Assembly (NCBI RefSeq): GCF_024323335.1
Contig: NC_066582.1
Location: forward strand, 89,648,944-89,712,943
Source: Lathyrus oleraceus
Lineage: Eukaryota > Streptophyta > Magnoliopsida > Fabales > Fabaceae
Reading direction: 5' to 3'
DNA length: 64,000 nucleotides
Shown: positions 1,401-62,522 of the stretch, piece by piece
Position numbering within the stretch: the stretch's first letter is position 1
Layout: each line of letters starts with the position of its first letter
Position numbers and translations under genes: made by a program
The notes under the pieces: model-generated
What the model was told of the DNA's origin: nothing
Databases searched by the model: none
What the model saw: the letters and a program-made list of their open reading frames with translations, nothing else

Positions 1401-3270
1401 GTCAAACGCGCGCTCATTTCAAATCCACACAGGGATCGATTCCCAGCGATGCCATTTTTCAAATTGCTTCATTCTTTTTGTTTTCCCTCCACATTTCCAT
1501 GTATGCTTCATGTTTGATTTCATTTTTTATGCTAACTTCAAAAATCATATTAAATTGAAAAATGCATCAATTCATCTCCAATTTTTTGCATAATGATCCT
1601 TAGAATGTCTAGTTTCTTATGATCATGAGTTTGAAAGTTGTGCATGGCTGGAATTTTATTTGCTCTAGGATGATTGAACACATGTGCATTTGTGACCTTG
1701 CCTTACTCTTCCTATCATGAAATGCTTGATTTTAATCCAATGGACTTGAAATTTTACATGCTGATTCTAGACACATTGTTGGATGTTTTAGGCTTGGTTT
1801 GGTATTTTTCCCATTCACCATTTTTGTTTTATGCATGTGTTAGCATGGTGTGACAATTTGTGTCAGACATTTAGTTGTTCAACTTGTATCATTTAATTTC
1901 CATGCCAAATGATCTTGGATGCTTCTTATTTTTTGTATGATGATCTTGTTGGATGTGTTGAATGCTCATGAATTTTTCCAGAATTGTTTGAATCATTTCT
2001 GTTTTGTTTTGGAATTTTCATTCATGATGATCACATATGAGCTTTGAAATTGTCTTTGGCTTCTCTTGCTTGATACATGGCCTTGCTTGATGATTCTGAT
2101 TTTAGGATATGTTAATATGTGTTTGAAGTTGCATTGTGTTGAATTTCAGCTCCTGTTTTGAATTTTTTCTTCACCTTTGACCCTAGGCTTTGACCTAGTG
2201 GTTTGTTACTTACATGTGAGCTTTGAATTTCAGGACCAAGCATCCAAATGCCATGGTTGATGATGCTTCATCATTTGAATGTTGATATTTGCTTTTGATT
2301 GCTGACATTTGCTGTTTTGTAGGTTGATGATAAGTCACTTGAGTTTGCCTTATGGCTTATGTGTTGTACATTGGGATTGTCTGTTTGTTATTGACTGTTG
2401 TCTGTTGGTATGAATTCTGTACTGATTGGTTTAGTTGTTTCCACAGGTACCTAAGTTGCTTTAAGTTCATTTGAACTTTGCTTTGCTTTGCTGTGGTTGG
2501 TGTTCAACTTAGGTATAATTCCTGATCTTCATGTAGTCTGGAAGACCTGTCATGTTACTTTGGCAGGCACCTGTCTGAAGCCCTCCTTAAGAGGCAATGT
2601 TTGTGGTTGTTTAATTTTGTCCAAGCAGGTTAAGTCCTCTTAAGAGGCAATTGGCAGATAAAAGGGATGTGTAATCCATCCCCTGCTATTCTGTTGTGTC
2701 ATTCATCTTGCTCACACCATGTGTTGATGCACTTTGAATAAAAACCAAAAATCTTGTAGTGTCAGTCACGTGGAGAAGAGTTCCTTCATTCTGAACTCCC
2801 ACACTTTCTATTGATTAAAGCTCTCCCAGGCCAAGGATAAGAGCTATGAGGCACACCCCTCACTCCCATTTCATCTGCTTCACCCTAACTCTAAATGTTA
2901 GGGTTAAGAGCTCAAAACACCCATTTCCAGTTGGCTTGTTTGTCAAGGTTGATATGACCCCTTGACTAAAGCCCAACCTTGCTTGAGCCCCCCTTGGTTG
3001 TGTATAGTGTGTGCTATTTGCTTTTGATGTTTATCTGCTTAACTTCTCATCTCCTTTCTGTAGGAGTTGTATGATCAAATTTTGAGGAAGTTGACGTACG
3101 TAGAGATAGACTTGAGTTGACTCACTGCCTGTGTGAGTCAAACTCTTGTCAGAGACTTCAATATAGGGATCATTTGCATGACAACTTCTAGGCTCGAGTC
3201 ATAGTCTCCCTAGTAGTCTGTTATCTCCCTAGTCTCTGGTTAGGATAGAAGTTCTTTCCATGTTCAGGGG

Positions 3271-3341
3271 AACTACGTTGCCCTGATCCTCATACCAGAT
3301 GAGGTACGTAGGCAGGAGATCGTGCGAGATCTCTCCGGGCA
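3271..3341 (+). other. hairpin module, copy a (element 1 5' LTR)
   Basis: The module begins GAACTACG, then ..CTGAT. Stem H1 is CCTCAT-ACCAG-ATGAGG (3288-3304), followed by TACGTAGGC, then stem H2 with GAGATC/GATCTC arms (3316-3333). In element M the same module has CTTCAT/ATGAAG in H1, a compensatory change. The 3' LTR copy is at 55975-56046. The structure is inferred from pairing only. Confidence 0.6.
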
Positions 3342-3692
3342 CCCTTTTCCTTTTTGTGTGTGTTTGCTTGACAGCTAGCAGGCTCGAGTACCAGACTCCC
3401 TGTTAGCTTGTTTGTTCAACTTTTTTTGTTGCTTTTGATGACTCAGCGTCCGGTTAACCTCTTGTTTGCTTGGAGTCTGACGTAAGTGCAGCGATTGGCA
3501 GTCGGTTTCCTGTGTTTGTTTGTGTGGAGTCTGACGTAAGTCCAGCAATTGGCAGTCGGTTTCCTGTGTGTGTTTGTTTGTTTGGAGTCTGATGTAAGTC
3601 CAGCGATTGGCATTCGGTTTCCAGTTTGTGTTTGTGTGTTTGTTTTGACGTCTCAGCGTCTGTGCGTGTGTTTTGTTTCGGCGTGCATGAGT

Positions 3693-3767
3693 CGAGCTAC
3701 GAGTGCTCTGATTCTTTCTCTGGTCAGAGAAGATACGTATGCATAGGGTGCGACATCCTAGCGAGCA
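3693..3767 (+). other. hairpin module, copy b (element 1 5' LTR)
   Basis: GAGCTACG is followed by CTCTGAT. H1 is TTCTCT-GGTC-AGAGAA (3716-3731), then ATACGTATGC, H2 TAGGGT-GCGAC-ATCCTA (3744-3760, one G-T wobble), then GCGAGCA. In M the H2 stem is TAGGAT/ATCCTA. The element 1 3' LTR copy (56397-56471) has lost one H2 pair. Confidence 0.6.
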
Positions 3768-3783
3768 TGTTTCCCCTGTCCCC

Positions 3784-3851
3784 GAACTACGTCGACTCTG
3801 ATGTCTGTGCCTGACAGACTACGTAGGCCCAGGATGCGATATCCTGCCGAG
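3784..3851 (+). other. hairpin module, copy c (element 1 5' LTR)
   Basis: GAACTACG is followed by CTCTGAT. H1 is GTCTGT-GCCTG-ACAGAC (3803-3819), then TACGTAGGC, H2 CAGGAT-GCGAT-ATCCTG (3830-3846), then CCGAG. In M, H1 reads GTCTAT/ATAGAC, which keeps the pairing. The 3' LTR copy is at about 56488-56555. Confidence 0.62.
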
Positions 3852-3949
3852 TCCTCTTCTTCCGTCTTTCATCTGTGTTTCAGTCCAGTTTTGTGCAGTT
3901 TTAAGCAGTTCTCTAGCAACCTTTCTTCTATTCTTTCTGAGCGTGGATC

Positions 3950-3998
3950 CCGTCGAGTACGACGGATGCGTAGGGGTGCTAATACCTTTCCTTCGCAT
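3950..3998 (+). other. terminal double-hairpin RNA candidate, element 1 5' LTR
   Basis: The first hairpin is CCGTCG-AGTA-CGACGG (3950-3965). The second helix is ATGCG (3966-3970) with CGCAT (3994-3998), enclosing GGTG-CTAA-TACC. The same fold with different stem bases is found in every other LTR family of this window. It lies 154 nt upstream of the LTR end. Confidence 0.75.
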
Positions 3999-4098
3999 AA
4001 CCGACTCCCGATCCTATCAATCTCTGGTCGCGAGACCATTCCTTTCAAGGTTTACTTCGAGCGTTTCCTTTCCCTCTTTTGGGATAAATAACGCACGG

Positions 4099-4109
4099 TG
4101 GCGGCTCTG
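4099..4109 (+). promoter_or_regulatory. PBS-like segment inside the LTR
   Basis: TGGCGGCTCTG differs at one base from the first 11 bases of the true PBS (4155-4172), which starts 56 nt further on. The equivalent place in the other LTRs reads TGGCGACTCTG (element 2, 18804-18814), TGGCGACTCT (element 3, 42826-42835) and TGGAGACTCT (solo LTR, 62021-62030). Confidence 0.55.
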
Positions 4110-4152: not shown

Positions 4153-4172
4153 GCTGGCGACTCTGCTGGGGA
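4153..4172 (+). promoter_or_regulatory. primer-binding site, tRNA-Arg type (element 1)
   Basis: Directly after the LTR terminal CA come GC and then TGGCGACTCTGCTGGGGA (4155-4172). Its complement closely resembles, from memory, the 3' end (with CCA) of a plant tRNA-Arg, the primer known for Ogre elements. The identical 18-mer occurs in element M (35176-35193, minus) and element 3 (42896-42913). Confidence 0.85.
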
Positions 4173-18650: not shown

Positions 18651-18698
18651 CCGTTGAGTACAACGGACGTGAGGGGTGCTAATACCTTCCCCTTGCGT
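18651..18698 (+). other. terminal double-hairpin RNA candidate, element 2 LTR
   Basis: CCGTTG-AGTA-CAACGG (18651-18666) is followed by helix ACGTG/TGCGT (18667-18671 with 18694-18698, including G-T wobbles) enclosing GGTG-CTAA-TACC. Compared with element 1, stem pair 5 of the first hairpin changed from C-G to T-A. Confidence 0.75.
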
Positions 18699-22391: not shown

Positions 22392-22440
22392 ATGCGAAGG
22401 GAAGGTATTAGCACCCCTACGCATCCGTAGTACTCTACGG
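22392..22440 (-). other. terminal double-hairpin RNA candidate, M 3' LTR
   Basis: On the minus strand it reads CCGTAG-AGTA-CTACGG, then ATGCG...CGCAT around GGTG-CTAA-TACC. Relative to element 1, stem pair 5 is A-T instead of C-G. The copy in the other LTR is at 35349-35397. Confidence 0.75.
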
Positions 22441-22539
22441 GATCCACGCACAAAAGGAAGGAATATTGGTTGCTAAACACTGCTCAAACTCACACACACT
22501 GGCTGAAAGAGACAAAAGAGACTGACTGAAACTGACTCG

Positions 22540-28020: not shown

Positions 28021-29520
28021 CACTCAACATCCTGAAGAGGGCTAGAAAAGCAGTCTTATTAAAGGATGGATATTCGATTCCACAAGGAATACGAATCTTA
28101 CTCTGCTGGGGAGGACGACTTCGACCCAAGAGCGCATGAGACATATTATCTATAGCCGTCAGAACGTAGATAATAATCTCGCATGGAAGATTATCCATAA
28201 CCGGGTCGTAGGTTGTTAAATGAATAATCGATCGAAAACATCCTGAAGAAAGCGAAGGCAAACTTGTTAAAGGATGAACATTCGATTCCACAAGGAATAC
28301 GAATCTTACTCTGCTGGTGATAACAATCGAAAGATTGACCAAAGAGTGCATGAGATATATTATCTATAGCCGTCAAAACGTAGATAATAACCTCGCATGG
28401 AAGATTATCCATAACCGGGTTGTAGGTTGTAAGATGGATAAAACGACCGAAATCATCCTGAAGAGAGCGAAAGCAAACTTGTTAAAGGATGGGCATTCGA
28501 TTCCGCAAGGAATACGAATCTTACTCTGCTGGTGATAACAATCGAAAGATTGACCAAAGAGTGCATGAGATATATTATCTATAGCCGTCAAAATGTAGAT
28601 AATAACCTCGCATGGAAGATTATCCATAACCGGGTTGTAGGTTGTAAGATGGATAAAACGACCGAAATCATCCTGAAGAGAGCGAAAGCAAACTTGTTAA
28701 AGGATGGGCATTCGATTCCGCAAGGAATACGAATCTTACTCTGCTGGTGATAACAATCGAAAGATTGACCAAAGAGTGCATGAGATATATTATCTATAGC
28801 CATCAAAACGTAGATAATAACCTCGCATGGAAGATTATCCATAACCGGGTTGTAGGTTGTAAGATGGATAAAACGACCGAAATCATCCTGAAGAGAGCGA
28901 AAGCAAACTTGTTAAAGGATGGGCATTCGATTCCGCAAGGAATACGAATCTTACTCTGCTGGTGATAACAATCGAAAGATTGACCAAAGAGTGCATGATA
29001 TATATTATCTATAGCCGTCAAAACGTAGATAATAACCTCGCATGGAAGATTATCCATAACCGGGTTGTAGGTTGTAAGATGGATAAAACGACCGAAATCA
29101 TCCTGAAGAGAGCGAAAGCAAACTTGTTAAAGGATGGGCATTCGATTCCGCAAGGAATACGAATCTTACTCTGCTGGTGATAACAATCGAAAGATTGACC
29201 AAAGAGTGCATGAGATATATTATCTATAGCCATCAAAACGTAGATAATAACCTCGCATGGAAGATTATCCATAACCGGGTTGTAGGTTGTAAGATGGATA
29301 AAACGACCGAAATCATCCTGAAGAGAGCGAAAGCAAACTTGTTAAAGGATGGGCATTCGATTCCGCAAGGAATACGAATCTTACTCTGCTGGTGATAACA
29401 ATCGAAAGATTGACCAAAGAGTGCATGAGATATATTATCTATAGCCGTCAAAACGTAGATAATAACCTCGCATGGAAGATTATCCATAACCGGGTTGTAG
29501 GTTGTTAAATGAATAATCGA
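28021..29520 (-). repeat. 215-bp tandem repeat in M 3' UTR
   Basis: About seven units, with the same words at 28317, 28532, 28747, 28962 and 29177 (spacing exactly 215). The middle five units are almost identical, the first (28021-28237) is clearly diverged and the last ends in a diverged flank, a pattern expected from unequal exchange. Each unit contains a stem of ATTCG-ATTCC with GGAAT-A-CGAAT arms around GCAA, and a GATAAT/ATTATC inverted repeat. The overlapping open frames of 72 and 84 codons on the two strands are by-products. Confidence 0.93.
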
Positions 29521-31477
29521 CCGAAAAGAAAGGCATCAGGGTACCAGGACTAGGTATGCAAAAGATGACCAATCAAGAGAGGATAAAGTTGCTAACTCGG
29601 AGCAAATATCCAAAAGGAAAGGTGAAGACCCAATGGGGACAATACTGCTTGATCAAGGCAAGTATCCAAAGGGGAAAAGAGTATCAAAACCACAGAGAGG
29701 GGATTACATCTACCGGTTTGTAGGCAGACAACCACAGAAAAGTAACCAGTCATCATCGGGATGAGCACAAAGGGTTAACTCCAACAAGGGGAGGAAAGTG
29801 GGATTTTACAACTACCAGCTAGTGGGTAGAAAACCACAAAGATAGGACTTACAACTACCGGTTTGTAGGTAGAGGCCACCAAATTCCGCTGAGGATAAGA
29901 TGAATGAGTGCCGGTTAGTAAGCGACTATTCATTTATGCCCCAGGGAAGCACAGGAGACAGCCAACAGGAAGCCAATTTAGGATCGATCCAAAAAGGCAG
30001 ACTGAAAACACGACTCATCCTAATGAGGAAAGAACTCAATAGGGACAACCCATCCCGTGTAGGGAGGGAACGGAAATAACCGTCATCCACGAGGATGTAT
30101 CTCAGTGGGGAAATGGCAGGAAAGGATAGACACTTTTTGCTTAAGGGGTTGGCTCTACATGGAGAGATCAGACACACCCAACTCTGCTAGGGAGGATCTA
30201 CTGGAGAGATCTGTATCAACAAATAGCAGGAGGTAACAATCAACAGATACCCGGCGACAGCTGCAACATGAGTATCCAAATGCTATGATTATGCATGTAT
30301 GCATTATGCATGATGAATGTATGATGAATGCTGACAAACAGACATGCTCAACACGCAGGTCCGGGAATCAACCGTCCGGAGAGAAAACCAAAGCCACCAG
30401 AGAGCAAAGAAAATCCACTGGGGACTGGGGTATCAGGGAACACTTATCCTGCAGGGGAGGAAGGCCACCGGAGGCTTCCGGAGGGATCGTCAGTCACAAC
30501 CGGAGAACAGAGTTCAACATACAGGCGTATGCGCCACAACAACTCGTGATGAAAATCTGAGATACCCCGAAGCAACCAGATCTCTGATGAGAAATACAAA
30601 GGCATTGATAAAGCTCCTTACGCGAACAACTCCACTGGGGGATCTATCTGAGGGAATGCCGGATTACGGGGATGTCGATCCTCCAAATACTGAATCTTCC
30701 AAGAAAAGCACCCATGCTGGGGAGAGATGAAGACTGCTCTGCTGGAGAGGCGAAAGTTGAAGTCTTCAGTAAACACTCTGCTAGGGGAGCTGCCCCACAA
30801 TAATGTCCGAAACAGCAAACTTGCTGGGGATGCCCCACGATAGGGCTCAAACAGCACTCTACTGGGGATGCCCCACAATAGGGCTAATAGGGACTTGGAG
30901 AAGGAAAATGCTGCACTGCCGGGGACGTGAAGATAAACGACTTCAACCAACACTGCATCGGGCAACTTCACTGAGGAGAGACCATACGAGGTTCTGCAGG
31001 ACAAAGATACAGTCATGCTCGAGATACGAACAATTGTCTTACCTGTTGGTAATCATACCACCCCCGGGAGAGCACTGTGGGTCTCCTAAGTATTCTTCCA
31101 TCATTGTGAATGTTCACTTTGCTTAAGAACATTTTTTTTTTGAAAAATTTGTTTATTTTGAAAAACAATGGTACTTTATCAATTAAAGCATGCAAAACAT
31201 TTGTTGAGTTGAAACAAATAAGAGTGCAAATAATTGGATAAAAGCTCAAATTGATGTGATGGAATGGTAGTCTGCAAAGGGCGAGACTCCATAGATCTGT
31301 ACAAGTTTGAAATCGGTGATATATATTGGAGAGGGCTACATTGAACATAATGACCTTTCCTCTACCATTCTGAATTTTCGATGTATTCAAAGCTTCAGTC
31401 GACGATGAATCGAGAATCCCTGACGGATGACAGATATAGAGCCTAGTCTTGTCAAGATGCAGTTACTTGCCAAATCC
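29521..31477 (-). other. 3' UTR of element M, non-array part
   Basis: Non-coding. Words of the kind CTCCCCAGC (minus) recur (for example 30640-30990), matching the CCCCAGCAG-rich stretches in elements 1 and 3. No protein domain is recognised in the open frames at 30344-31126 or 30618-31390. Confidence 0.5.
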
Positions 31478-35175: not shown

Positions 35176-35195
35176 TCCCCAGCAGAGTCGCCAGC
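35176..35195 (-). promoter_or_regulatory. primer-binding site of element M
   Basis: The minus strand reads TGGCGACTCTGCTGGGGA (35193 down to 35176), separated from the LTR end (35196) by GC. It is identical to the PBS of elements 1 and 3 and of tRNA-Arg type. Confidence 0.88.
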
Positions 35196-38100
35196 TGTCG
35201 CATCACGCGAAAAACCGGCGGGAAAAGAAAGAAACAACAGAGCCGCCACCGTGCGTTATTTATCCCAAAAGAGGGAAAGGAAACGCTCAGAGTAAACCTG
35301 GAAAAGACATGGTCTCGCGACCAAAGAGAATGGGTTCGGGAGTCGGTTATGCGAAGGGAAGGTATTAGCACCCCTACGCATCCGTAGTACTCTACGGGAT
35401 CCACGCACAATAGGAAGGAATATTGGTTGCTAAACACTGCTCAAACTCACACACACTGGCTGAAAGAGACAAAAGAGACTGACTGAAACTGACTCGGCAG
35501 GATATCGTATCCTGGGCCTACTTAGTCTATCAGGCATAGACATCAGAGTCGAAGTAGTTCAGAATGGGGAGACGACACATGCTCGCTAGGATATCGCATC
35601 CTATGCATACGTATCTTCTCGGACGAGAGAAGAATCAGAGCATTCGTAGCTCGGCTGACACGCACACAAACAAACAAGACACAGGCAAACGTGGCGCCCG
35701 AATGCCAATCACTGGACTTACATCAGCATCCGAACCTAAACACACACACACTAGAACCCAAATGCCACTCGATGGACTTACATCGGCTTCCAAGCACACA
35801 ACAACACAACAAGTCAATAGGGAGTCGGGGACTCGAGCCTATAACTGTCAAGCACACACTCAAACAAACAGACAACGAATTGCTAAGGAGTCAGGCACTC
35901 GAGCCTAGCAACTGTCAAACAACACACACAAAAAGAAAAAAGGGCGCCCGGAGAGATCAACTCAATCTCCTGCCTACATACTTCATCTGGTATGAAGATC
36001 AGGGCGATGTAGTTCCCCTACGCAGGGATAAAGGACTAGCCTAACCAGATAACAGAGGGAGACACAACACTAGGGAGACTACGACTCGAGCCTAGATGTT
36101 GTCATGCAAAGTCGACCCTAAGTTAAGGTTTCTAGCTAACTGGCACAGGGAGCCAGCCTATCCTAAACATGACTTGCACAGGAAGCAAGCCACACCAACA
36201 CTCACCTTGCACAGGAAGCAAGGGTCTCGATTGCAACTAGGGCAAGAGAAAGGGGAGGTCTCAATCGCAACGAGGGCGAGAGAAAGGATCGCAACGAGGG
36301 CGAAAGAAAAGAATTAGTGTTAGTTGTTAGTCAAACTCGACAAGACATCGCATCTCGTGCCTACGTATCTCATCTGAACATGAGAATCAGAGTTGCCGTA
36401 GTTCGGCTACGGAGGGACAAAGGTCTCGATTGCAACTAGGGCAAGAGAAAGGGAAAGTCTCGATCGCAACGAGGGCGAGAGAAAGGAAAAGGCTCGATCG
36501 CAACGAGGGCGAGAGAAAGGAAAAGGCTCGATCGCAACGAGGGCGAGAGAAAGGATCGCAACGAGGGCGAAAGCAAACAAGGATTAGTCTAAACTAAACC
36601 TAACTTGCACAGGAAGCAAGTCAAACAAACATACAAGCACATGTAGCACACACGATATACACACAAGGGGCTCACACAAGGGTTAGGTTTTAGTCGAGGG
36701 GTCATATCAACCTCAACAAACAAACCTCTGGAAATGGGTGATGGTGCTCTTAACCTTGACATTGAGAGCCAAGGTGAAGCAGATGAAAGGAGATGAGGGG
36801 TGTGCCTCATTGCTCTTATCCCTGGCCAGGGAGAGCATTTGACAAGAATGTGTGGGTTCAGAAGGTGGGAACCCCTCTACACATTTGATACTGACTCAAC
36901 TGTACAATTGTACAAGATCTTGGGTTTTTATCTGTAATGCATCAACACAGTGGTGTGAGCAAAACAGAAGACACACTGAATAGCAGGGGATAGGTTGCTT
37001 ATCCCTTGGTTCTGCCAATTGCCTCTTCACTTAGGAGGTCTTTGACTCTGTACAAGGACAAATTAAACATACACAAACATTGCCTCTTAAGGAGGACTTC
37101 AGACAGTTGCCTGGCCAAGTAACAGGCCAGGTCTTCCAGACTACATGAAGAAAAAGGAATTATACCTCAAGCAAGTTGCTAAATAGCAAAGCAAAGCAAG
37201 TTCAAAGAACTTAAGCAACTAATGGTACCTGAAATGGTCAAACAGATCAGTACACAGTTCAACAGTCAAAGCAAAAGGAATTGGGAAACAACAGTCAACA
37301 CAGAGGGACAAATGTGCAAAGCACAAGACTCAAGTCATATGAGTCATATCACCTACAAAACAAAGAGGTTAACACATGATATATAATCAAGCTCAATCAA
37401 ATTTGTATGATCCCTTTGAGGCATTTGGTGTTCAACCTGAAAACATAAGCTCAACAGTAAGTAACTGGACCACTAGGACAAGCCTAGGGTCAAAAAGGAA
37501 TGAGAAAGTCAAAACAGCAAATTAAGGTCAACCAAAATCAAGTTCAAACATTTAAGAAGCAAGCTCAATTGGTCTCAAGTTCATATCATTCATCATCATG
37601 ATTTCATAAGCAAAGGAAGTCAAAGCATGGCAAATGAAAGCTCATAGAAGTCAACAGCAAGACTTGCATCAAAAGCAATCATAATCAATTCCAAAAATCA
37701 GCAAATAAATCATGATCAATCACAATCCATAACATGACATGCATATAAAATTTCAGCTCAATTGGATCATGGGAAGATGGTCAATTAAAATCAGGAAATC
37801 AAAACAATTTCAAACATGCACAAAGAAGTCAAACATACATGTATCAACTTCAAAAAATCATAACTTAATGCCAACAGATGAGAAATGGATGGGATCAACA
37901 CCAATGCAAAGCTCAAGATATCTAGTATGCACATGTAAAATTTCATGATCATCCAATAAAGTATGAGAATTTCCCAAATGAAATGGCAAGATGTATCACA
38001 CAAAGTCAACATTTGACTAGACAGGGAAGAAAAATCTCAAACAATTAGGAAATGGCATAATTAAATCCAGGAAAAATCACAAGTCAACTAGACATATACA

Positions 38101-40427
38101 AGAAGGTTCATGCAAAATTTTGGATCAATTGGAGGCCAGGAAGCATGTCAACAAAAATCATGAAATGGCATATCATTGGTGTGACACAAATTGTCACACC
38201 CTACTTCCAAAATTCATATCTCACAAACCACATATGATAAATTCAAAAACTCCACATCAAAACAAACATAAATGAGTGTAGATTAACCACAAAAAATTTC
38301 AGAATCATTGGATACATCCTCATCATTTCACAAAAGGATTGGCAAAAGGTACAAAATGTGCACACATGCCAAGAAACCTAATACCATTTAAAATCCAGCC
38401 AACCAAAAATTCAGCAAAAATCATGATAAAAAAGTAGACATTCATGTGAACATGATGAAAAAAATTTCATGAATTTTGGAGTTGAAATGAGTGAGAAATG
38501 ATTTTTATAAACTTGTGTCACAAAATGAAATAATATTACAAAAAAAGAAATGATTTAAATAACTAGTTAATCCGGCGATGGCAATATTGTAATTTTTTGA
38601 CTCACTAAGTGAAACGCTGCGTTTCACTTAGTGAGGTGGCAGCCAACAATTCGCTACATGGCCAAGAACGCGGGAACTTCATGCATGGCTGGGTTTTCAA
38701 GATCAAACGCGATGCAATTAGGGTTCTAACACATTCATCATCAAAATTTTTCCAGATTTCCAGCAAGAACGAAGTATAACCAAAATTCACAAACAACATA
38801 TCATGGTGTTCATCTAACCGAGTACATCAACAATACGAACATCATTTTCATTAACTCTAGCTAACCAGGGAGCATCGAGCAAAAACATGATTTAACATGA
38901 AACTTTAAAATCAGATTTCTCACTCAATGCATAACCATTTCACACGATTCAAACTTCATAATGATCAGAAAAACAAGACCTATCTAAAACATGGCACGAT
39001 TTTGGGAATGGTGTGATTCGAAAACTTACCCAATCTGCAAGACAGTGATGCTACCGATGTTGTTTGGTCTCGAAAGGCTGAAACAGATGTTCAATGGAGT
39101 TTGCTTTGATGAATGAACACTGAGTTTTAGCTCAACAATCTCTAAAAGGGCTCCATTCGAGATATGCCATGGAAGGAGCTTCGATGTAACAGTGCCTTTC
39201 TCCGCTTACAGTGGTGACATAAGGCTTCCAATGAGCTCAAGAGTGATGGTAGATGATGACAATGCAAAGGGTTCCTCGTGTGCTTTGGAGATTTTGGCCA
39301 GAAAATGCAATATGTGAAAAATGCAATTTTTGAGAGAATGAGAGTTTTTTGATCTGTTAGGGGCTGCAGCTAGGGTTTATTTTGCAGAAAATCTCTTATA
39401 TATTGACTGTTTAGCATTTAGTTAATGAAGTGTTAAGCTTGGTTAACTCAAATGAAGTGAATTGCCAATTGCTAATTTTTCAACATATGCACATGGAGGG
39501 TGTAAGGTCTGCACGAATTGGGCCTCAAAACATGTCTCAAATATCCTTCTAAACAGATCCCAAATGGCCAAATGTGCTGAAAATACTTAAATCAAAAAGT
39601 CAACTTTGGTCCACACTTGAAATTAATTAGGTTAGGTTCAAAAATGCCATTTTGCATGGTAAGGTTTTGGTGCATGAAATTTATATTTTTGGAAAGAGGA
39701 GGTAAAATGTGGCTTGTAGGAAAAAACCTCACCAAAATTGGCCAAATGGTTTGAGAGATATGGCCTTTTGAAGTTCAAGATTTTGTGAAAATGATTTGAT
39801 CATATCTTGACAACCATGCATGGGAATTGAGAGTTCTTGGACTTTTTCAAAATGGGAGAACAAGATCTTCAACTTTCATGTTGGGCAAAAATTCATTTGA
39901 AGCTTGTATCATGATGTAAGCTTGGGATCAAGAAGTTTCCATTTTTGGCAGTTTGAATTACAGGTCAACTTTCTATTTCTGGAAATTTCTTGTCTGACTT
40001 TATTTTCTTCACTGTGGATGCTTGACATGATATATGAAGCTTATATAGGCATGAATGAGACCTCTCAGACCAAAACCCATCACCAAATCCCTGATTAAAT
40101 CCACAGTTGACCAAGTTTGACTTTTCTAGGGTTTCTGACTGACTGTGCATGAACTGATGACTTCTGAACATCCAACCCTTGACTTAAACATTTCAAATGG
40201 ACCTCCAAGTCATGTGAACAAATTGGACCAACCCTAGGGCCTTGGCTCCTTGAGAAACACCCTTGCTTGCTTGGTTGACTGATCTCCTGATCAGTTTGAC
40301 CTAATTTCTTGATTGGCTTGCACTTGAGGCAACTGGGACAATGCAATGCTATGCAATAGACCATGTTATTCTATGACCTAATATGAAAATGTATGTACAA
40401 TGGTGGGTGCAAATTTGAGGTGCTACA
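35196..40427 (-). repeat. 5' LTR of element M
   Basis: Almost identical to 22239-27468 (offset 12,957 at the left end). Differences I noticed include C for A near 35696, a few transitions around 35725-35745, and single-base differences near 37411, 37524, 39189 and 39419. It contains the TATA-like site 39395-39402, the palindrome 38601-38635, the modules at about 35497-36017 and 36329-36409, and the double-hairpin 35349-35397. Confidence 0.93.
35349..35397 (-). other. terminal double-hairpin RNA candidate, M 5' LTR
   Basis: Identical to the copy at 22392-22440: stem CCGTAG/CTACGG with loop AGTA, then ATGCG/CGCAT. Confidence 0.75.
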
Positions 40428-41360: not shown

Positions 41361-41638
41361 TGTAACACCCCAAATTTTGCCCTCCTCATTCATGCATTCA
41401 TTTAGCATTTCATATTGCATTTCATCATGTCAATCAGAATTAGATCCAAGAAACTTTATTTAAAAAAAAAAAAAACGAAAAAAAAAAACGAAAAAAAAAC
41501 GAAAAAAAAAACGAAAAATAAATAAAAATAAATAAATAAATAAATAAAAATAATAATAAATAAATAAATGAAATATAATAGAAAAAACTTGGACTTGGAC
41601 CTCTCTCATTTGAGCCCACAAAGCCATGAAATTCAGTC

Positions 41639-41646
41639 TATAAATA
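41639..41646 (+). promoter_or_regulatory. TATA box, element 3 5' LTR
   Basis: TATAAATA in the context CAGTCTATAAATACCAAGG, about 280 bp into the LTR, with the 3' LTR copy at 51683-51690. A start about 30 nt downstream would place all modules in the transcribed R/U5 part. Confidence 0.65.
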
Positions 41647-42406
41647 CCAAGGCTTCACTTGAGAAAAAGGAAGAGAAGCAAAATACTCTGAGGTTTCCTT
41701 GAAACAAAACCCTGGACAAAACCTGGAGAGGAACCTGACAGAGAACTCAGAGCAACCCCCATCTCACGCAAACCCTAACATTTCAACCGGTCTCTCCCAT
41801 CAGGGTTTGAGGTTTCTGAAACCATACTGTTATCCATGAAAAAAATGCTTATCGTGTTTCACTAACCCTTTTGTTGAGTTTTTGTGAGGGCTCACAGACT
41901 CTTGCAGAGATGGTTTGCGTGGTTTTCCCACTTTATTTGTGGGATAACCCCTGGAGGTTCATTCTGATTACCTGTACTGACTCACCTTTCTTTGATGGCA
42001 TTAGCTTGGGAGATCCCTGGGTTTCTTACTCCTTTAATTGCTGTTACTTAGGATCTTTATCCGTGTGGTACTTTTACCTCTTTTCCACATTTTTATCGCT
42101 TTCTTAGCTGGAAGACCTCGATAGGAGACATTTGTTTTCTTTTGTTTATTTACTTCTGAGCCCCTTGTTGGCACATTTACTTTATACATGTTTGTTTTGT
42201 ATGTGTTCGTATCCCTGCAGGTAGCGCGGTTCCTTCGTCAAGGACTGCCTTTTTGCCCTTGAGCATCCCAAACCCTAACCCTTCATTGATTTTTCTTCTC
42301 CTAAACACACGTTTACTCCTTCTACTACAGGTGAGTAAGTCTCCAAAGGTCAAGCATCCGGTAGATTGCGTAGTAACGTCGTTCGTCCAAAACCCAATCC
42401 ATAACC

Positions 42407-42590
42407 CCGTAGTTAGCCGAACTACGGCTTGCTCTGATTCTCATTCCAGATGAGATACGTAGGCATAAGACGCGATGTCTTAGCGAGCACACATCCCCCC
42501 AACCCATAGGTCAGCCGAGCTACGAAGACTCTGATTCTCATATTCAGATGAGATACGTATGTAGTGGATGCGACATCCGCGCGAGTCATT
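42407..42590 (+). other. two triple-stem modules, element 3 5' LTR
   Basis: Module 1: H0 CCGTAGTT-AGCCG-AACTACGG (42407-42427), CTCTGAT, H1 TCTCAT-TCCAG-ATGAGA (42439-42455), ATACGTAGGCA, H2 TAAGAC-GCGAT-GTCTTA (42466-42482), GCGAGCA. Module 2: H1 TCTCAT-ATTCAG-ATGAGA (42536-42553), ATACGTATG, H2 GGAT-GCGAC-ATCC (42566-42578), GCGAG. The 3' LTR copies are at 52451-52634. Confidence 0.68.
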
Positions 42591-42667
42591 TTCATTTAAC
42601 CCCCTTTTTAGTAAATAACACATTAGATAAACCTACACCCTTTAGACAAGAACTACAAAAGTGGATC

Positions 42668-42716
42668 CCGTAGAGTACTACGGATGCGTAGGGGTGTTAA
42701 TACCTTCCCTTCGCAT
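42668..42716 (+). other. terminal double-hairpin RNA candidate, element 3 5' LTR
   Basis: CCGTAG-AGTA-CTACGG (42668-42683), then ATGCG (42684-42688) with CGCAT (42712-42716) enclosing GGTG-TTAA-TACC. The 3' LTR copy is at 52713-52761 with loop CTAA. Confidence 0.75.
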
Positions 42717-42893
42717 AACCGACTCCCGAACCCAAGATTTGGTTGCAAGACCCCGTCTTGTCCTTTCCTTTTTCAGGTTTACTTCGAGCGTTTCCTTTCC
42801 CTCCTTTGGGATGAATAACGCACGGTGGCGACTCTTCTGTCATTTTCTTTCGCCGGTTGTTTTTTCGCGCACTGTATTTTTCAGGTTGCGACA

Positions 42894-42913
42894 GCTGGCG
42901 ACTCTGCTGGGGA
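42894..42913 (+). promoter_or_regulatory. primer-binding site of element 3
   Basis: GC and then TGGCGACTCTGCTGGGGA (42896-42913), directly after the LTR terminal CA. tRNA-Arg type. Confidence 0.88.
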
Positions 42914-50325: not shown

Positions 50326-50690
50326 CAGAGGATCAAGGGTGAGTGATCCAGCCTGAGGGTCGTTTTGAAGATTCAGCCTGAGAATCGTTTTCCAGTGATC
50401 CAGCCTGAGGGTCATTTCGAAGATTCAGCCTGAGAATCGTTTTCCAGTGATCCAGCCTGAGGGTCATTTCGAAGATTCAGCCTGAGAATCGTTTTCCAGT
50501 GATCCGGCCCGAGGTTCATTTTGAAGATTTAGCCTGAGAATCGTGTTCCAGTGATCCAGCCTGAGGGTCAGTTCGAAGATTCAGCCTGAGAATCGTGTTC
50601 CAGTGTTCCAGCCTGAGGGTCATTTCGAAGATTCATCCTGAGAATCGTGTTCCAGTAAGCCAGCCTAAGGCTCAATTTGAAGATTCCCCA
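50326..50690 (+). repeat. 52-bp hairpin repeat in element 3 3' UTR
   Basis: About six to seven units, each with two small hairpins of constant loop: GATCC-AGCCTGA-GGGTC and GATTC-AGCCTGA-GAATC, joined by ATTTCGAA or GTTTTCCAGT. Stem bases differ between the two classes and pair in both. Confidence 0.85.
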
Positions 50691-51399: not shown

Positions 51400-51558
51400 T
51401 GTAACACCCCAAAATTTGCCCTCCTCATTCATGCATTCATTTAGCATTTCATATTGCATTTCATCATGTCAATCAGAATTAGATCCAAGAAACTTTATTA
51501 AAAAAAATAAATAAAATAAAAAACGAAAATAAATAAATAATAAAATAATGAAAAAAAA

Positions 51559-51589
<31 letters not shown>

Positions 51590-52938
51590 AAAAATAATAA
51601 TAAAAAAATAAATAAAATATAATAGAAAAAACTTGGACTTGGACCTCTCTCATTTGAGCCCACAAAGCCATGAAATTCAGTCTATAAATACCAAGGCTTC
51701 ACTTGAGAAAAAGGAAGAGAAGCAAAATACTCTGAGGTTTCCTTGAAACAAAACCCTGGACAAAACCTGGAGAGGAACCTGACAGAGAACTCAGAGTAAC
51801 CCCCATCTCACGCAAACCCTAACATTTCAACCGGTCTCTCCCATCAGGGTTTGAGGTTTCTGAAACCATACTGTTATCCATGAAAAAAATGCTTATCGTG
51901 TTTCACTAACCCTTTTGTTGAGTTTTTGTGAGGGCTCACAGACTCTTGCAGAGATGGTTTGCGTGGTTTTCCCACTTTATTTGTGGGATACCCCCTGGAG
52001 GTTCATTCTGATTACCTGTACTGACTCACCTTTCTTTGATGGCATTAGCTTGGGAGATCCCTGGGTTTCTTACTCCTTTAATTGCTGTTACTTAGGATCT
52101 TTATCCGTGTGGTACTTTTACCTCTTTTCCGCATTTTTATCGCTTTCTTAGCTGGAAGACCTCGATAGGAGGCATTTGTTTTCTTTTGTTTATTTACTTC
52201 TGAGCCCCTTGTTGGCACATTTACTTTATACATGTTTGTTTTGTATGTGTTCGTATCCCTGCAGGTAGCGCGGTTCCTTCGTCAAGGACTGCCTTTTTGC
52301 CCTTGAACATCCCAAACCCTAACCCTTCATTGATTTTTCTTCTCCTAAACACACGTTCACTCCTTCTACTACAAGTGAGTAAGTCTCCAAAGGTCGAGCA
52401 TCAGGTAGATTGCGTAGTAACGTCGTTCGTCCAAAACCCAATCCATAACCCCGTAGTTAGCCGAACTACGGCTTGCTCTGATTCTCATTCCAGATGAGAT
52501 ACGTAGGCATAAGACGCGATGTCTTAGCGAGCACACATCCCCCCAACCCATAGGTCAGCCGAGCTACGAAGACTCTGATTCTCATATTCAGATGAGATAC
52601 GTATGTAGTGGATGCGACATCCACGCGAGTCATTTTCATTTAACCCCCTTTTTTAGTAAATAACACATTAGATAAACCCACACCCTTTAGACAAGAACTA
52701 CAAAAGTGGATCCCGTAGAGTACTACGGATGCGTAGGGGTGCTAATACCTTCCCTTCGCATAACCGACTCCCGAACCCAAGATTTGGTTGCAAGACCCCG
52801 TCTTGTCCTTTCCTTTTTCAGGTTTACTTCGAGCGTTTCCTTTCCCTCCTTTGGGATGAATAACGCACGGTGGCGACTCTTCTGTCATTTTCTTTCGCCG
52901 GTTGTTTTTTCGCGCACTGTATTTTTCAGGTTGCGACA
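51400..52938 (+). repeat. 3' LTR of element 3
   Basis: 1539 bp, near-identical to 41361-42893. Visible differences include the length of the A-rich microsatellite (51498-51620), and single changes such as GCAACCCCC/GTAACCCCC, ATAACCCC/ATACCCCC, CATTTTTATC preceded by A or G, CATCCGCG/CATCCACG and GTGTTAAT/GTGCTAAT. TATA at 51683-51690, modules at 52451-52536 and 52556-52634, double-hairpin at 52713-52761. Confidence 0.93.
52713..52761 (+). other. terminal double-hairpin RNA candidate, element 3 3' LTR
   Basis: CCGTAG-AGTA-CTACGG (52713-52728), then ATGCG (52729-52733) with CGCAT (52757-52761). Confidence 0.75.
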
Positions 52939-54095: not shown

Positions 54096-56654
54096 GTCAA
54101 ACGCGCGCTTATTTCAAATCCACACAGGGATCGATTCCCAGCGATGCCATTTTTCAAATTGCTTCATTCTTTTTGTTTTCCCTCCACATTTCCATGTATG
54201 CTTCATGTTTGATTTCATTTTTTTATGCTAACTTCAAAAATCATATTAAATTGAAAAATGCATCAATTCATCTCCAATTTTTTGCATAATGATCCTTAGA
54301 ATGTCTAGTTTTTTATGATCATGAGTTTGAAAGTTGTGCATGGCTGGAATTTCATTTGCTCTAGGTTGATTGAACACATGTGCATTTATGACCTTGCCAT
54401 ACTCTTCCTATCATAAAATGCTTGATTTTAATCCAATGGACTTGAAATTTTACATGCTGATTCTAGACATATTGCTGGATGTTTTAGGATTGGTTTGGTA
54501 TTTTTCCCATTCACCATTTCTGTTTTATGCATGTGTTAGCATGGTGTGACAATTTGTGTCACACATTTGGTTGTTCAACTTGTATCATTTAATTTCCATG
54601 CCAAATGATCTTGGATGCTTCTAATTTTTTGTATGATGATCATGTTGTATGTGTTGAATGCTCATGAATGTTTCCAGAATTTTTTGAATCATTTCTGTTT
54701 TGTTTTGGAATTTTCATTCATGATGATCACATATGAGCTTTGAAATTGTCTTTGGCTTCTCTTGCTTGATACATGGCCTTGCTTGATGATTCTGATGTGA
54801 TCCTTTTTAAGATATGTTAATATGTGTTTGAAGTTGCATTGTGTTGAATTTCAGCTCCTGTTTTGAATTTTTTCTTCACCTTTGACCCTAGGCTTTGACC
54901 TAGTGGTTTGTTACTTACATGTGAGCTTTGAATTTCAGGACCAAGCATCCAAATGCCATGGTTGATGATGCTTCATCATTTGAATGCTGATATTTGCTTT
55001 TGATTGCTGACATTTGCTATTTTGTAGGTTGATGATAAGTCACTTGAGTTTGCCTTATGGCTTATGTGTTGTACATTGGGATTGTCTGTTTGTTATTGAC
55101 TGTTGTCTGTTGGTCTGAATTCTGTACTGATTGGTTTAGTTGTTTCCACAGGTACCTAAGTTGCTTTAAGTTCATTTGAACTTTGCTTTGCTTTGCTGTG
55201 GTTGGCGTACCACTTAGGTATAATTCCTGATCTTCATGTAGTCTGGAAGACCTGTCATGTTACTTTGGCAGGCACCTGTCTGAAGCCCTCCTTAAGAGGC
55301 AATGTTTGTGGTTGTTTAATTTTGTCCAAGCAGGTTAATTCCTCTTAAGAGGCAATTGGCAGATAAAAGATATGTGTAATCCATCCCCTGCTATTTTGTT
55401 GTGTCATTCATCTTGCTCACACCATGTGTTGATGCACTTTGAATAAAAACCAAAAATCTTGTAGTGTCAGTCATGTGGAGAAGAGTTCCTTCATTCTGAA
55501 CTCCCACACTTTCTATTGATTAAAGCTCTCCCAGACCAGGGATAAGAGCTATGAGGCACACCCCTCACTCCCATTTCATCTGCTTCACCCTAACTCTCAA
55601 TGTTAGGGTTAAGAGCTCAAAACACCCATTTCCAGTTGGCTTGTTTGTCAAGGTTGATATGACCCCTTGACTAAAGCCCAACCTTGCTTGAGCCCCCCTT
55701 GGTTGTGTATAGTGTGTGCTATTTGCTTTTGATGTTTATCTGCTTAGCTTCTCATCTCCTTTCTGTAGGAGTTGTATGATCAACTTTTGAGGAAGTTGAC
55801 GTACGTAGAGATAGACTTGAGTTGACTCACTGCCTGTGTGAGTCAAACTCTTGTCAGAGACTTTAATATAGGGATCATTTGCATGACAACTTCTAGGCTC
55901 GAGTCATAGTCTCCCTAGTAGTCTGTTATCTCCCTAGTCTCTGGTTAGGATAGAAGTTCTTTCCCTGTTCAGGGGAACTACGTTGCCCTGATCCTCATAC
56001 CAGATGAGGTAGGTAGGCAGGAGATCGTGCGAGATCTCTCCGGGCACCCTTTTCCTTTTTGTGTGTGTTTGCTTGACAGCTAGCAGGCTCGAGTACCAGA
56101 CTCCCTGTTAGCTTGTTTGTTCAACTTTTTTTGTTGCTTTTGACGATTCAGCGTCCAGTTAACCTCTTGTTTGCTTGGAGTCTGACGTAAGTCCAGCGAT
56201 TGGCAGTCGGTTTCTTATGTTTGTTTGTGTGGAGTCTGACGTAAGTCCAGCAATTGGCAGTCGGTTTCCTGTGTGTGTTTGTTTGTTTGGAGTCTGATGT
56301 AAGTCCATCGATTGGCATTCGGTTTCCAGTTTATGTTTGTGTGTTTGTTTTGACGTCTCAGCGTCTGTACGCGTGTTTTGTTTCGGCGTGCGTGAGTCGA
56401 GCTACGAGTGCTCTGATTCTTTCTCTGGTCAGAGAAGATACGTATGCATAGGGTGCGACCTCCTAGCGAGCACGTTTCCCCTGTCCCCGAATTACGTCGA
56501 CTATGATGTCTGTATCTGACAGACTACGTAGGCCCAGGATGCGATATCCTGCCGAGTCCTCTTCTTCCGTCTTTCATCTGTGTTTCAGTCCAGTTTTGTG
56601 CAGTTTTGAGCAGTTCTCTAGCAACCTTTCTTCTATTCTTTCTGAGCGTGGATC

Positions 56655-56703
56655 CCGTCGAGTACGACGGATGCGTAGGGGTGCTAATACCTTCCCTTCG
56701 CAT
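56655..56703 (+). other. terminal double-hairpin RNA candidate, element 1 3' LTR
   Basis: CCGTCG-AGTA-CGACGG (56655-56670), then ATGCG (56671-56675) with CGCAT (56699-56703). Identical stems to the 5' LTR copy. Confidence 0.75.
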
Positions 56704-58876: not shown

Positions 58877-61689
58877 TAAGCTCTCTTGCTCAGAAATAAG
58901 GACCTCATGCGCAAGCTTTGATTCAGCAATCCTAAACCCTTATCATTAAAGGATAAGCTTGAAGATTTTCTTTGAAAATAGATTTTCAAATCTCCAACTA
59001 TTTTGAGATTAAAACTCCAAGAGTCCATACCTTTCCTTGATCCATTTCTATTCCAAAAAGCATCTGAAGCAAGGCCAAGCATAATTGAGAGCAAGATCGT
59101 ACAAATCTAAAGCTCCATTGAAGGTGATTTTCCAGATTTTCCACTCTTCGATTCTCTCTTATTTCTCCAATATTATTGTTGATTTTTGGTTGTTTGAACT
59201 CTTACCAATGTAGGCAACAAGATTGAGTTGCTTAGAGGTCAAATCGAAGTAACTCAGATCATGATTGTCAAAATTCAACTCCCTGTATCTTCCTATATAC
59301 TTGGAGTTAGACAAAATTGAGGTCAGACTCGATCTCCTGAGCATTTTTGCTTTAAATCCATGTCTTGCTTTTTCATTTTGGTGATGGTTGAAGATGGACC
59401 AGTCCGGTGAGGTCCATCGGAGAAGAAGACCAAAGCTCTGGCTCCGGCGATGTGTTGGCAAATCTCTGAACCACATGATCCATTCAAAATGTTTTAATCT
59501 TGAGCGTTGGTTGTGATTACCACGTGTGTTGCGCAGTTGATTGATGACCACATGGAACGCGTGCTTTGGACCATTTGATATGCAGCCTCAATTAATGAGG
59601 GAGATCAGATGGTCCACATTTTTATTTTATTTTTGGATTTTCATTTTAATTGCTTTATCTTCATTAATATATATTAATTTTAATATTGATCCAAGAAAAT
59701 ATGAGACTTTCACCAAAAAATTTCAAAAAATTTTCTCTTTCATTTTCTGAATTAAAATTATTTTTTGGATCAATATTAATATTTTTCATGATTTAATTGT
59801 TTTTGTGCATATTTTTAATTGTTTAAAAATACTTTTGACTTTCCAAAAATTATGAATTTTTTTGTCTAAGATCCTTTGACCTTCACTGACCTAGGATAAA
59901 TCTCTTGGCCATTGATTTGTTATTTTGAAGATATTTTAGGTTTTTAATCAAACATAATTTAATTTAATGCATTTTTAATTGATTTTTAATTGTTTAATTG
60001 TGAATAAATCGTGTTGAGCTATTTTTATTGACTTATGAAGTTTGACTATGATGTTTGGGCCTTGGTCAAGGTTGATTTCACATTGTTGGATTAAAATCAT
60101 TTGATTTAGGGAATTGATGAAATGTGAATTTCATCTCCCAAAATGAATGAATGATTTTAATTTGATGGAATTCCTCTCATGACCAATTTGTGTTTGTCTC
60201 ATTTCCCCTCCCTCTTGATCTTCGATCCCATTATATCCCATCCATTCCATTGACCAATTATATCTCTATATCCTAAGGCTAGTTGGTTCATAAACCGACA
60301 CAAGTATGAATGAGATTAGGTCCATCCTTTTGCCATTTTCTTTTTAAGTGTGGCATGTTTTACGAGTATGGTTCCTTATACCATATCTCTAACATGCATT
60401 AACACTAAAATTTCTATTGCCCGACCTCAGATAGTTGTGACTTCTACATAAGTCCAATTACGATTGCTTAACATATCGCTAAATTTTGACCCAAAAGCAT
60501 AGCATTCTAGTAAGTGAGATTGTAAGTCTCCCCCCTTTCATGGTATTGCGTGGAAACTTAGCCTTTTTGCCTTCCTTTGGAAGATGTCTTGGTTCAAGGA
60601 TCCATGCTTGTGAATAGAGGGTTGAGTGTTCTCCAAAGAATGACTTAAACAATTGAAAAGCAAAAATAATACTAAGATATAATCAACTAACATTTGACTA
60701 ACTTTTAATTTCAAGTCATTTACCTTATGCACTTTAAATTCAAGCCCTTTTATCATTTGCCATTATTCATATCATTTAACTTGTTTATTTTAATGCTATT
60801 TTTACTTTGCTCACTTGAGCCATGTATTGTGAATATATTGTGATTATATATACTTGTTTGTGGATTTTGTTTGTGTTTGTAGTCTTAGGACCTTAATGTA
60901 CATAATAACAACAAAAACCCTAAAAAATGTTTGTGTGGACTGTTGGATTTGATCTGAGACTTGGACTTAGTATTAGGCAACACTCCCTATGCAAAAGGAC
61001 TTGGCCAATTCCAACTTTTCTGAAGCCAAGTCATTGTGAATTGAACTTTCATCTGATGCAAGTATTGAGATCCCTTTTGAGTTCATCTGCTACATGGTCT
61101 TGATGCAAATGTTACTTTGAACCTGTGTCTAATGTCTATTTCTGAGCCATTCAAGGAGTATGTCATTTGATACATGGGAGCTTAAGAAAAAGACTATGGA
61201 GTGGCTAGCTTGGATGTGGTTATCTATCTTTGATGACTTGCTCTTCATCTTGCTACTTGTGTATTGATATTTCTTGATTTCGAAGTCCAAAGGAAAAATG
61301 GGTTTCTATATGACATTCTTGTCTATTGGATTGCATCCCATTGGTCCGATCTTTTCAACTCTTAACTTTTAAATTTCTTTCTTAGGATTAGTGTCTTCAT
61401 CCCCTCCCACTTCTTAAATTTCAAACCTCTCCCCTCATTCAAAATCTTCTTTGCTTGTTATTTTTAAATCTAGACTTTATTGCAAATTAGAAACTTTGGC
61501 CTTATGCCATTGCATTTTTGTAAACTTCTTTTTCTTAATCAAACTTGTAAATGAACTTAACCATACTTGACTTAAAATTTCAAAATACAAAAAGAACTAA
61601 CACTCATTCAAACTCTATTAGGACTTTTGTGCCTCTTTTAAACTAATTTTTTTGTTAAAAGAAATTCACTCACTTTGAAATTGATACCA

Positions 61690-61770
61690 CAAACTACGAG
61701 GTTTTGATCCCTCATTTTATGTTGGTACGTAGGCACAAGTCCGAAGGTCTTGTCAAACACAAAAAATATA
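61690..61770 (+). other. degenerate hairpin module, solo LTR
   Basis: AACTACGAGG and TTTTGATCC correspond to the GAACTACG and CTCTGAT words. GGTACGTAGGCA is kept exactly, and ACAAG/CTTGT forms a reduced H2. H1 (CCCTCAT...ATGTTGG) is imperfect. Confidence 0.45.
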
Positions 61771-61856
61771 ATTAATGAATTCTTTTCTCATCCCCACACT
61801 CTATTTACTACAAACATCTTTCATAGCTAAACACATATACACATAAAAAAGGGATC

Positions 61857-61904
61857 CCTAGGAGTACCTAGGACACTTTGGGTGGTAACACCTTCCCTCT
61901 GTGT
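61857..61904 (+). other. terminal double-hairpin RNA candidate, solo LTR
   Basis: CCTAGG-AGTA-CCTAGG (61857-61872), then ACAC (61873-61876) with GTGT (61901-61904) enclosing GGTG-GTAA-CACC. Stem pairs 3, 4 and 5 all differ from the other families yet remain paired. The inner G-T pair of the other families is G-C here. Confidence 0.78.
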
Positions 61905-62086
61905 AACCAACCCCCTTACCTGTAATCTCTGACATTTTATTAGTTTTGATTTGAAACCTTCTTATCTTTGGGTTTTGTTCGTACTTTTCCCTTTTTCCTT
62001 TGGAAACAATAAAAGTGCGGTGGAGACTCTAGTTTAATTGACATTAATTTTGTCCATAGCTTAATGGTCATGAATTTACCGCTACA

Positions 62087-62522
62087 CATAGACGTCAAGA
62101 TATTTAATTCTGAGAGCAATGGCCTCTTCAAGCCCCATAATGCAAGCTTCATACTCAGCCATATTGTTTGTACACTTGAAGGTCAACCTAACTGTAAATG
62201 GAAAGTGAGTTCCTTGAGGAGTAATAATCACTGCCCCAATGTCATTACCATACGAATTAACAGCTCCATCAAATACCATGCCCCAACGGGATCCGGGTTC
62301 TGGCCCTTCTTCAAGAAATAGTTTATCACAATCTTTCATCTTCAAATAAAAAATCTCTTCTTCAGGAAAATCATATTGTACTGACTAATACTCTTCAATC
62401 GGTTGGTGAGCCAAATGGTCAGCCAAGACACTACCTTTAATAGCTTTTTGAGATCGACATTCAATATCATACTCAGATAACAACATCTGCCAATGGGCCA
62501 TCCTTCTAGTTAAAGCAGGTTT
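62087..62522 (-). pseudogene. RNase H (first part) of element 5
   Basis: Minus strand: after a TAG at about 62520, KPALTRRMAHWQMLLSEYDI and KAIKGSVLADHLAHQPIEEY, then another TAG at about 62385. After that the frame is open to the solo LTR: EEGPEPGSRWGMVFDGAVN, TNNMAEYEACIMGLEEAIAL. FDGA and MAEYEA carry catalytic acids of RNase H. The next block (GDSTL) is on the far side of the solo LTR. Confidence 0.8.

Follow-up and report, generated by a model that had tools for sequence, protein, structure and literature searches.

Retroviral R regions carry stem-loops, e.g. the TAR and poly(A) hairpins of HIV-1 and the R stem-loop of MLV. To our knowledge, little is known of the RNA signals by which plant LTR retrotransposons pick, package and copy their genomic RNA. 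Structured RNA transport elements are present in mouse IAP and MusD transcripts, with the MTE including a pseudoknot, according to PMC12786077. For a double hairpin present in the LTRs of a 64,000-nucleotide stretch of Lathyrus oleraceus contig NC_066582.1 (the window), there is strong evidence that the shape serves the RNA life cycle of the LTR elements bearing it, with paired letter changes keeping that shape.

A scan of both strands for a 6-nt arm, the loop AGTA and the exact reverse-complement arm recovers eight hairpin sites in the window and no others; these are the same eight sites and stems, from five families, that were reported in the initial annotation. Self-BLAST of the window gives three LTR pairs (A, B and C), and both LTRs of each have the double hairpin. 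In pair A (97.6% identity) the left LTR ends at 4152 and extends beyond the window start, and the right LTR ends at 56857 and is split by a nested element; hairpin 1 of the left LTR (3950..3965, plus strand) reads CCGTCG-AGTA-CGACGG and is followed by hairpin 2 (3966..3998, plus), with the two hairpins together at 56655..56703 (plus) in the right LTR. Pair B (22239-27468 and 35196-40427, minus strand, 99.5% identity) has the two hairpins at 35349..35397 (minus) in the LTR preceding the presumed primer-binding site (PBS) and at 22392..22440 (minus) in the other; hairpin 1 alone spans 35382-35397 and 22425-22440, the initially annotated positions being the low ends of these spans. Pair C (41361-42893 and 51400-52938, plus, 97.7% identity) has the hairpins at 42668..42716 (plus), with arms CCGTAG/CTACGG, in the left LTR and at 52713..52761 (plus) in the right. 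Families D and E are single copies in the window. In D (18651..18698, plus) the arms are CCGTTG/CAACGG and ACGTGAGGGG/CCCCTTGCGT; in E, hairpin 1 (61857..61872, plus) reads CCTAGG-AGTA-CCTAGG and hairpin 2 (61873..61904, plus) has ACAC..GTGT enclosing GGGTGGTAACACCTTCCC, with a 3x3 internal mismatch, and is weak in folding. By coordinates, the element ends 153-182 nt before the LTR end, in agreement with the 150-185 nt first proposed. Four further families (F, E2, G and H) were located via the double hairpin itself, such that families without the element would be missed and the retention of the element in these four is not an independent test.

The host elements are probably Ty3/gypsy-type, Ogre/Tat-like LTR retrotransposons, a lineage name that we infer; PF03732 gag is present in two of the seven ORFs scanned. 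Tandem repeat arrays are seen by self-comparison inside or beside the elements, at 12177-14107, 21059-21841, 28026-29527 and 50342-50686 of the window. Elsewhere, three family E LTR copies lie 7.76-7.77 kb apart (G000:C7:237166699, 237174459 and 237182226; L068-L070, L087) and are identical over 230 nt, i.e. a tandem array of LTR-containing units.

The double hairpin is present in tens of thousands of LTR-element copies in this genome, all evidence for it coming from this one genome. Counts covering the 3,795,255,167-base assembly (1550 contigs) gave 73,607 exact matches, as against eight copies in the window, to a pattern combining hairpin 1 (first C and last GG fixed, 13 of its 16 letters free) with the start of the hairpin-2 core, so that the earlier observation holds and extends further. 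A hairpin-1 pattern in which the third base of the 5' arm is not G gave 79,358 matches, and the hairpin-2 core with seven free letters per side gave 66,494; the three counts overlap and are not additive, and the reversed-pattern control was zero for each. DNA stretches were sampled from seven contigs of 464-653 Mb each, and in 25 stretches of 10 kb taken at regular coordinates (L088-L112) a covariance model identifies 14 copies, in 12 of the 25, or ~1 per 18 kb. Over 27 sources (324 kb) the model finds 25 places scoring at least 55.5 bits, the next best scoring 12.5; 17 of these 25 are training rows, and the other eight score 55.5-82.7 bits. With this separation, the element may help to recognise homology among LTRs that have diverged beyond alignment. 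Pattern searches of IMG/VR returned 9, 30 and 25 stretches, in the printed flanks of which the rest of the element was not seen by eye, and the top covariance-model score on 27 of these 64 loci, all preselected by pattern match, was 19.7. GTDB contigs gave no pattern match, and tblastn with one RT piece (IMG/VR) and one RNase H piece (GTDB) gave no relative.

Hairpin 1 is a 6-bp stem, its 5' arm being C C p3 p4 p5 G, followed by a tetraloop and the complementary arm; across families p3-p4-p5 is GTC, GTA, GTT, TAG, ATG or TTA. The loop had been described as always AGTA, which does not hold in the wider sample: among the 100 matches listed for the 73,607-match pattern (for each genome pattern, the first 100 along contig C1), the loop is AGTA in 59, ATAA in 34, and others in 7, the ATAA tetraloop representing one large family. 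Hairpin 1 is fully Watson-Crick in 80 of these 100, for which the pattern prescribed no more than pair 1 and one letter of pair 2; the rest have one wobble only (6), one mismatch (12) or two mismatches (1), or are out of register (1). For the 79,358-match pattern, which prescribes pairs 1, 2 and 6 and leaves no letters wholly free but the 3' ones of pairs 3-5, 92 of the 100 matches listed are fully Watson-Crick. All six hairpin-1 variants with at least three copies among the matches listed are standard-paired throughout, one of them with a G.U pair. Over the 26 distinct variants among the matches listed, 138 of 156 cells pair, whereas 10,000 shuffles, a control that ignores phylogeny, average 108.4 and reach 127 at most. 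On folding of one copy each from eight families, in native context and at two lengths, the pair probability of hairpin 1 is at least 0.90 in all eight. Some folds also contain an outer closing helix, GGATC/GATCC in A and GGTTC/GAACC in D, which was rejected because B and C break it.

Hairpin 2 abuts hairpin 1 with no gap, and consists of an outer helix of 4-5 bp and a core, GGGTGNTAAYACCTTCCC, that hardly varies. Among 32 distinct arm pairs, drawn from the 100 matches listed for the 66,494-match pattern, 118 of 128 cells in the outer four pairs are paired (shuffled mean 106.3, maximum 114, 5,000 shuffles); the inner three pairs have 59 of 96 cells paired, a value reached by 37 of 5,000 shuffles, with no clear covariation. 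Sliding of the 3' arm by -1 or +1 lowers hairpin-2 pairing from 79% to 15% or 31%, respectively, and sliding by -2 or +2 lowers it less, to 56% or 69%. The core fits two folds, i.e. GGTG/YACC with an NTAA loop, which was chosen by RNAalifold, or GGG/CCC enclosing a 12-nt loop; since only one side of the inner GGTG/YACC pairs varies, covariation is neutral between them. Thus, of the second helix as originally drawn, the outer part is upheld and the inner GGTG-NTAA-YACC part is ambiguous, the 12-nt loop alternative also fitting. In family F, hairpin 2 is a continuous 10-bp helix, ATACAAAGGG/CCCTTTGTAT. The outer helix has a pair probability of at least 0.88 at both lengths in six families (A, B, C, D, F and G); in E3 it is at least 0.86 at one length and 0.06 in the longer context, and in family E (61857) it is 0.08 in the short context and 0.22-0.23 in the long, making the 61857 copy the least convincing for helix 2. 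A further small hairpin is evident, from sequence alone, 22-28 nt past hairpin 2 (4026-4037, 42741-42752, 18720-18736), reading GGTC-GCGA-GACC in A and G, GGTT-GCAA-GACC in C and ATGGT..ACCAT in D, some of the loops being GNRA-type.

The position of the element within the LTR can be given relative to two landmarks. Some 110-150 nt past the hairpin-1 start there is an AATAAA-like motif and then CGGTGGCGACTC; the motif is exact AATAAA in D, E and H, and ATAAAT, ATGAAT or ATAAAA in others. Plant poly(A) signals are loosely defined, and the AATAAA-like word is presumed to be such a signal. In six places the order downstream is the AATAAA-like word, CGGTGGCGACTC or a close variant, the LTR end and then the presumed PBS, TGGCGACTCTGCTGGGGA; these are A, B and C in the window, an F copy (L100), a B-like copy (L110), and L106, where the PBS word lies ~9 nt beyond a degenerate E LTR end. 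In family A, the AATAAA-like motif GGGATAAATAACG with CGGTGGCGGCTCTG, a partial copy of the presumed PBS, is at 4081..4109 (plus) and the presumed PBS at 4155..4172 (plus); AATAAA with GGTGGAGACTC is at 62008..62029 (plus) in E, and the presumed PBS is at 42896..42913 (plus) in C and 35176..35193 (minus) in B. The word CGGTGGCGACTC (with up to two substitutions) duplicates the first letters of TGGCGACTCTGCTGGGGA directly past the AATAAA-like motif, as seen in one or more copies from every one of nine families (4096-4107, 18801-18812, 42823-42834, 52868-52879 and 62018-62029, plus strand; both B LTRs, minus strand), such that the primer tRNA 3' end would find a second complementary site at the 3' end of the RNA.

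Because the element precedes the AATAAA-like motif, it presumably lies in R or U3, not U5, and the R/U5 location initially suggested is not supported as worded. Hairpin 1 is covered by 17 alignments from cross-family BLAST with one copy per family (nine families, 36 pairs, -900 to +300 relative to the element, plus strand), and 13 of these start at -7 to -5; the four that start further upstream are A-B, A-G, B-G and E-E2, and family F near the element aligns to others only from +9 or +23. So sharp a left border resembles a U3/R boundary, and suggests that the double hairpin may stand at the very start of R, though the conserved GGWTC word at -5 to -1 could by itself produce such a border. Conserved pseudoknots that continue upstream of the supposed R start (see below) are evidence against this placement. 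A further point against it is that the motif TATA[AT]A occurs within 1 kb upstream of hairpin 1 only once among seven A-E copies, in D at ~-800.

Conserved loops, stems free to change, sense polarity and a constant position ahead of the presumed poly(A) signal together point to a cis-acting RNA element. The explanation that we rank first, and hold with about even confidence, is that it is an R-region element for recognition or replication of the genomic RNA. Of this explanation, the data above show the structure, its covariation, the strand, the copy number and the placing ahead of the AATAAA-like motif and presumed PBS. The element would lie at the 5' border of R or close to it, ahead of the poly(A) signal, and the sense transcript would fold into two abutting hairpins, stem 1 with its AGTA or ATAA tetraloop and stem 2 with the core GGGTGNTAAYACCTTCCC. 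A protein or second RNA would read the held loops on a fixed scaffold, the stem letters being free to vary while paired, and the element's own Gag/RT machinery may thereby recognise its genomic RNA, either for packaging or for holding two copies of R during first strand transfer. If in R, the double hairpin would be present twice in the genomic RNA, close to the cap at one end and immediately ahead of the poly(A) tail at the other. It is, in this regard, a testable candidate RNA signal and a possible marker of the U3/R border.

A possible, though less favoured, explanation, which we rank second, is that of a 3'-end element controlling poly(A) site use, nuclear export or stability, in the manner of an export element or a far-upstream poly(A) element, and dispensable for packaging. 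The element precedes the AATAAA-like motif in the copies inspected, so that it would be in the 3' end of full-length RNA wherever R begins; structured pseudoknots adjoin it; and structured export elements exist in mouse LTR elements, as described in PMC12786077. However, homology between distant families mostly begins at hairpin 1 and continues through R/U5, which suits a role in R better, and the AATAAA-like motif is not within the hairpins, neither of which is thus a poly(A) hairpin.

The pseudoknots belong to a second covarying element upstream, which can be written as a regular expression comprising GAACTACG, an arm PKa, TGAT, a hairpin, TACGTAGG, a hairpin and an arm PKb. Its number per LTR ranges from one (D and E) through two (C) and three (A) to four (B), and it recurs in relatives; the regular expression did not find it in family F. 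The main PKa types are TGCTC, GACTC, AGCTC, AACTC, CGCCC, TGCCC and GGTTT. A perfect 4-nt complement of PKa is present downstream in 37 of 40 distinct copies, many of which belong to family E (shuffled mean 11.3, maximum 22), and, with one copy per PKa type, in 8 of 10 (shuffled mean 2.1, maximum 7). The E copy (61691..61758, plus) pairs GTTT with AAAC. Family A copy 1 (3270..3345, plus) pairs TGCCC with GGGCA, and copies 2 and 3, in tandem at 3694..3867 (plus), pair TGCTC with GAGCA and GACTC with GAGTC; others are at 18446-18530, 42419-42600, 52463-52640, 55975-56050 and 56399-56570 (plus), and those of family B at 35480-35652, 35940-36015 and 36325-36404 (minus), with equivalents in the other B LTR (apart from the E copy, ends are approximate). 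Upstream of the element in family F (L102, upstream of 4419; L088; L100) there are two repeated hairpin-like units, ACTTGG..CCAAGT and CTTTGTA..TACAAAG, around a similar TACATTCGTAC..AGAATCATT word.

HDV-type ribozymes have the strand order P1-P2-P3-P1'-P4-P2', plus a conserved catalytic core. The pseudoknot element has the same nested strand order, but its P1 (5 bp) and P4-P2' linker (~2 nt) are shorter than those of HDV; a catalytic core is not evident, and a search of Rfam with two family A pseudoknot copies was without a match at E up to 1. The double hairpin and tandem pseudoknots might, though this is unlikely, form one modular RNA domain that marks and protects the genomic RNA ends, in which the pseudoknots would either stall 5'-3' decay by the host or cleave, and the double hairpin, placed where R starts, would be the site recognised by Gag/RT. 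If so, very abundant plant retrotransposons, at ~10^5 copies in one genome, would have a virus-like RNA-end system.

Somewhat more doubtful again is a dimer-initiation signal, by which two genomic RNAs would kiss via the hairpin-1 loop. A leader location, if R starts at about -6, and the constancy of the loop letters are as such a signal would have them; the loops AGTA and ATAA, however, are not self-complementary, which disfavours a kissing-loop dimer, the 12-nt loop TGNTAAYACCTT is without a conserved palindrome, and extended duplexes through palindromic arms are possible for some stems only.

It is very improbable that selection acts on the element as a DNA-level inverted repeat, e.g. as a cruciform in the LTR promoter or a sequence there to which a dimeric protein binds. 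In its favour, CCTAGG and CCATGG, both among the common stems, are hexamer palindromes; yet the stem letters covary while the loops and the hairpin-2 core stay constant, and in helix 2 G.T is frequent and A.C scarce, a pattern that makes sense only for sense-strand RNA. In hairpin 2 of the 100 copies among the matches listed, G.T occupies 83 cells as against 8 for A.C, and in the 32 distinct arm pairs 34 as against 5. A G.T pair would be a mismatch on the opposite strand, and thus sense RNA, not a DNA palindrome, is the form under selection.

All copies of the element are related, and shared ancestry has to be weighed in assessing the covariation. Alignment A1, made with MAFFT from 19 rows (17 distinct) hand-chosen to cover the families found, has 91.9% of cells paired, compared with 77.2% when shuffled and at most 51.5% with slid partners; the covariation score is 0.457, compared with 0.193 and at most 0.165, respectively, and 41 cells have both sides changed, compared with 13.9 when shuffled. 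The remaining two of the five measures are unremarkable beside the shuffles, i.e. two-sided changes in 8 of 16 pairs (30 of 500 shuffles attain as many) and the number of pair types (attained by 275 of 500). A tree was made from 190 nt of downstream flank, with the element itself excluded, for 25 hand-picked copies; it does not include L066, two other copies in L087 and L097 (the latter stretch terminating within the element) or the majority of the near-identical E copies. On this tree pair 5 has changed six or more times on each of its sides, and all 25 copies are paired there; pair 4 has two changes per side and pair 3 three and two, and over pairs 3-5 of the tree copies 74 of 75 cells pair. 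When columns were simulated independently (20,000 column pairs, 4-8 changes each), a mean of 9.4 and a maximum of 23 of 25 tips were paired. It is thus scarcely credible that the motif is simply inherited, with matched changes due to chance or gene-conversion tracts, even given the relatedness of the copies, the blindness of shuffle controls to phylogeny and the two unremarkable A1 measures, since none of the 20,000 simulated column pairs matches pair 5. Two-sided compensatory changes exceed the shuffle, slide and tree controls, as for a covarying structured RNA. The initial interpretation is therefore sustained as regards selection on RNA pairing, by the shuffle and slide contrasts, the repeated changes at pair 5 and the excess of G.T over A.C; its R/U5 placement, as worded, is the part left unsupported, and packaging, dimerisation and initiation of reverse transcription stay candidate roles.

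No description of the double hairpin was found among the titles and abstract openings listed from open-licence PMC text, including with literal sequence words, and Rfam 15 gave no match at the gathering threshold over the whole window or at E up to 1 in 61600-62100 and 3650-4200. A likeness of GGATCC..AGTACTA..GGATG..GGGTG to the 5S rRNA internal promoter was dropped, as some of these letters are changing stem positions and there is no Rfam match. The nearest parallels are the HIV-1 TAR and poly(A) hairpins and the MLV R stem-loop, which are small R hairpins near the cap and poly(A) tail and, like the present element, have a conserved loop and a paired stem. By contrast with these, the present element has two abutting hairpins with other loops, and the AATAAA-like motif is outside them; further, it has no known trans-activator, and its place in R is one that we infer. 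As with the retroviral packaging and dimerisation stem-loops, and in line with PMC3735527, it would be a cis-acting RNA of an LTR element, on which structural selection is expected; it differs from these in that its hairpin-1 loops are not self-complementary and in that it lies within the LTR and ahead of both the AATAAA-like motif and presumed PBS. The IAP and MusD transport elements, in the account given in PMC12786077, are similarly structured RNAs in LTR-element transcripts, but are mammalian, and homology to them, checked through Rfam alone, gave no match. Among the conserved LTR features of Benachenhou et al. 2013, as given in the portion of PMC3601003 consulted, no such double hairpin is described, and the whole words Ogre, Tat and pseudoknot have no occurrence in its main text. 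Structured cis-acting RNAs in LTR elements are thus already known, and it is in architecture and in place that the double hairpin differs from them.
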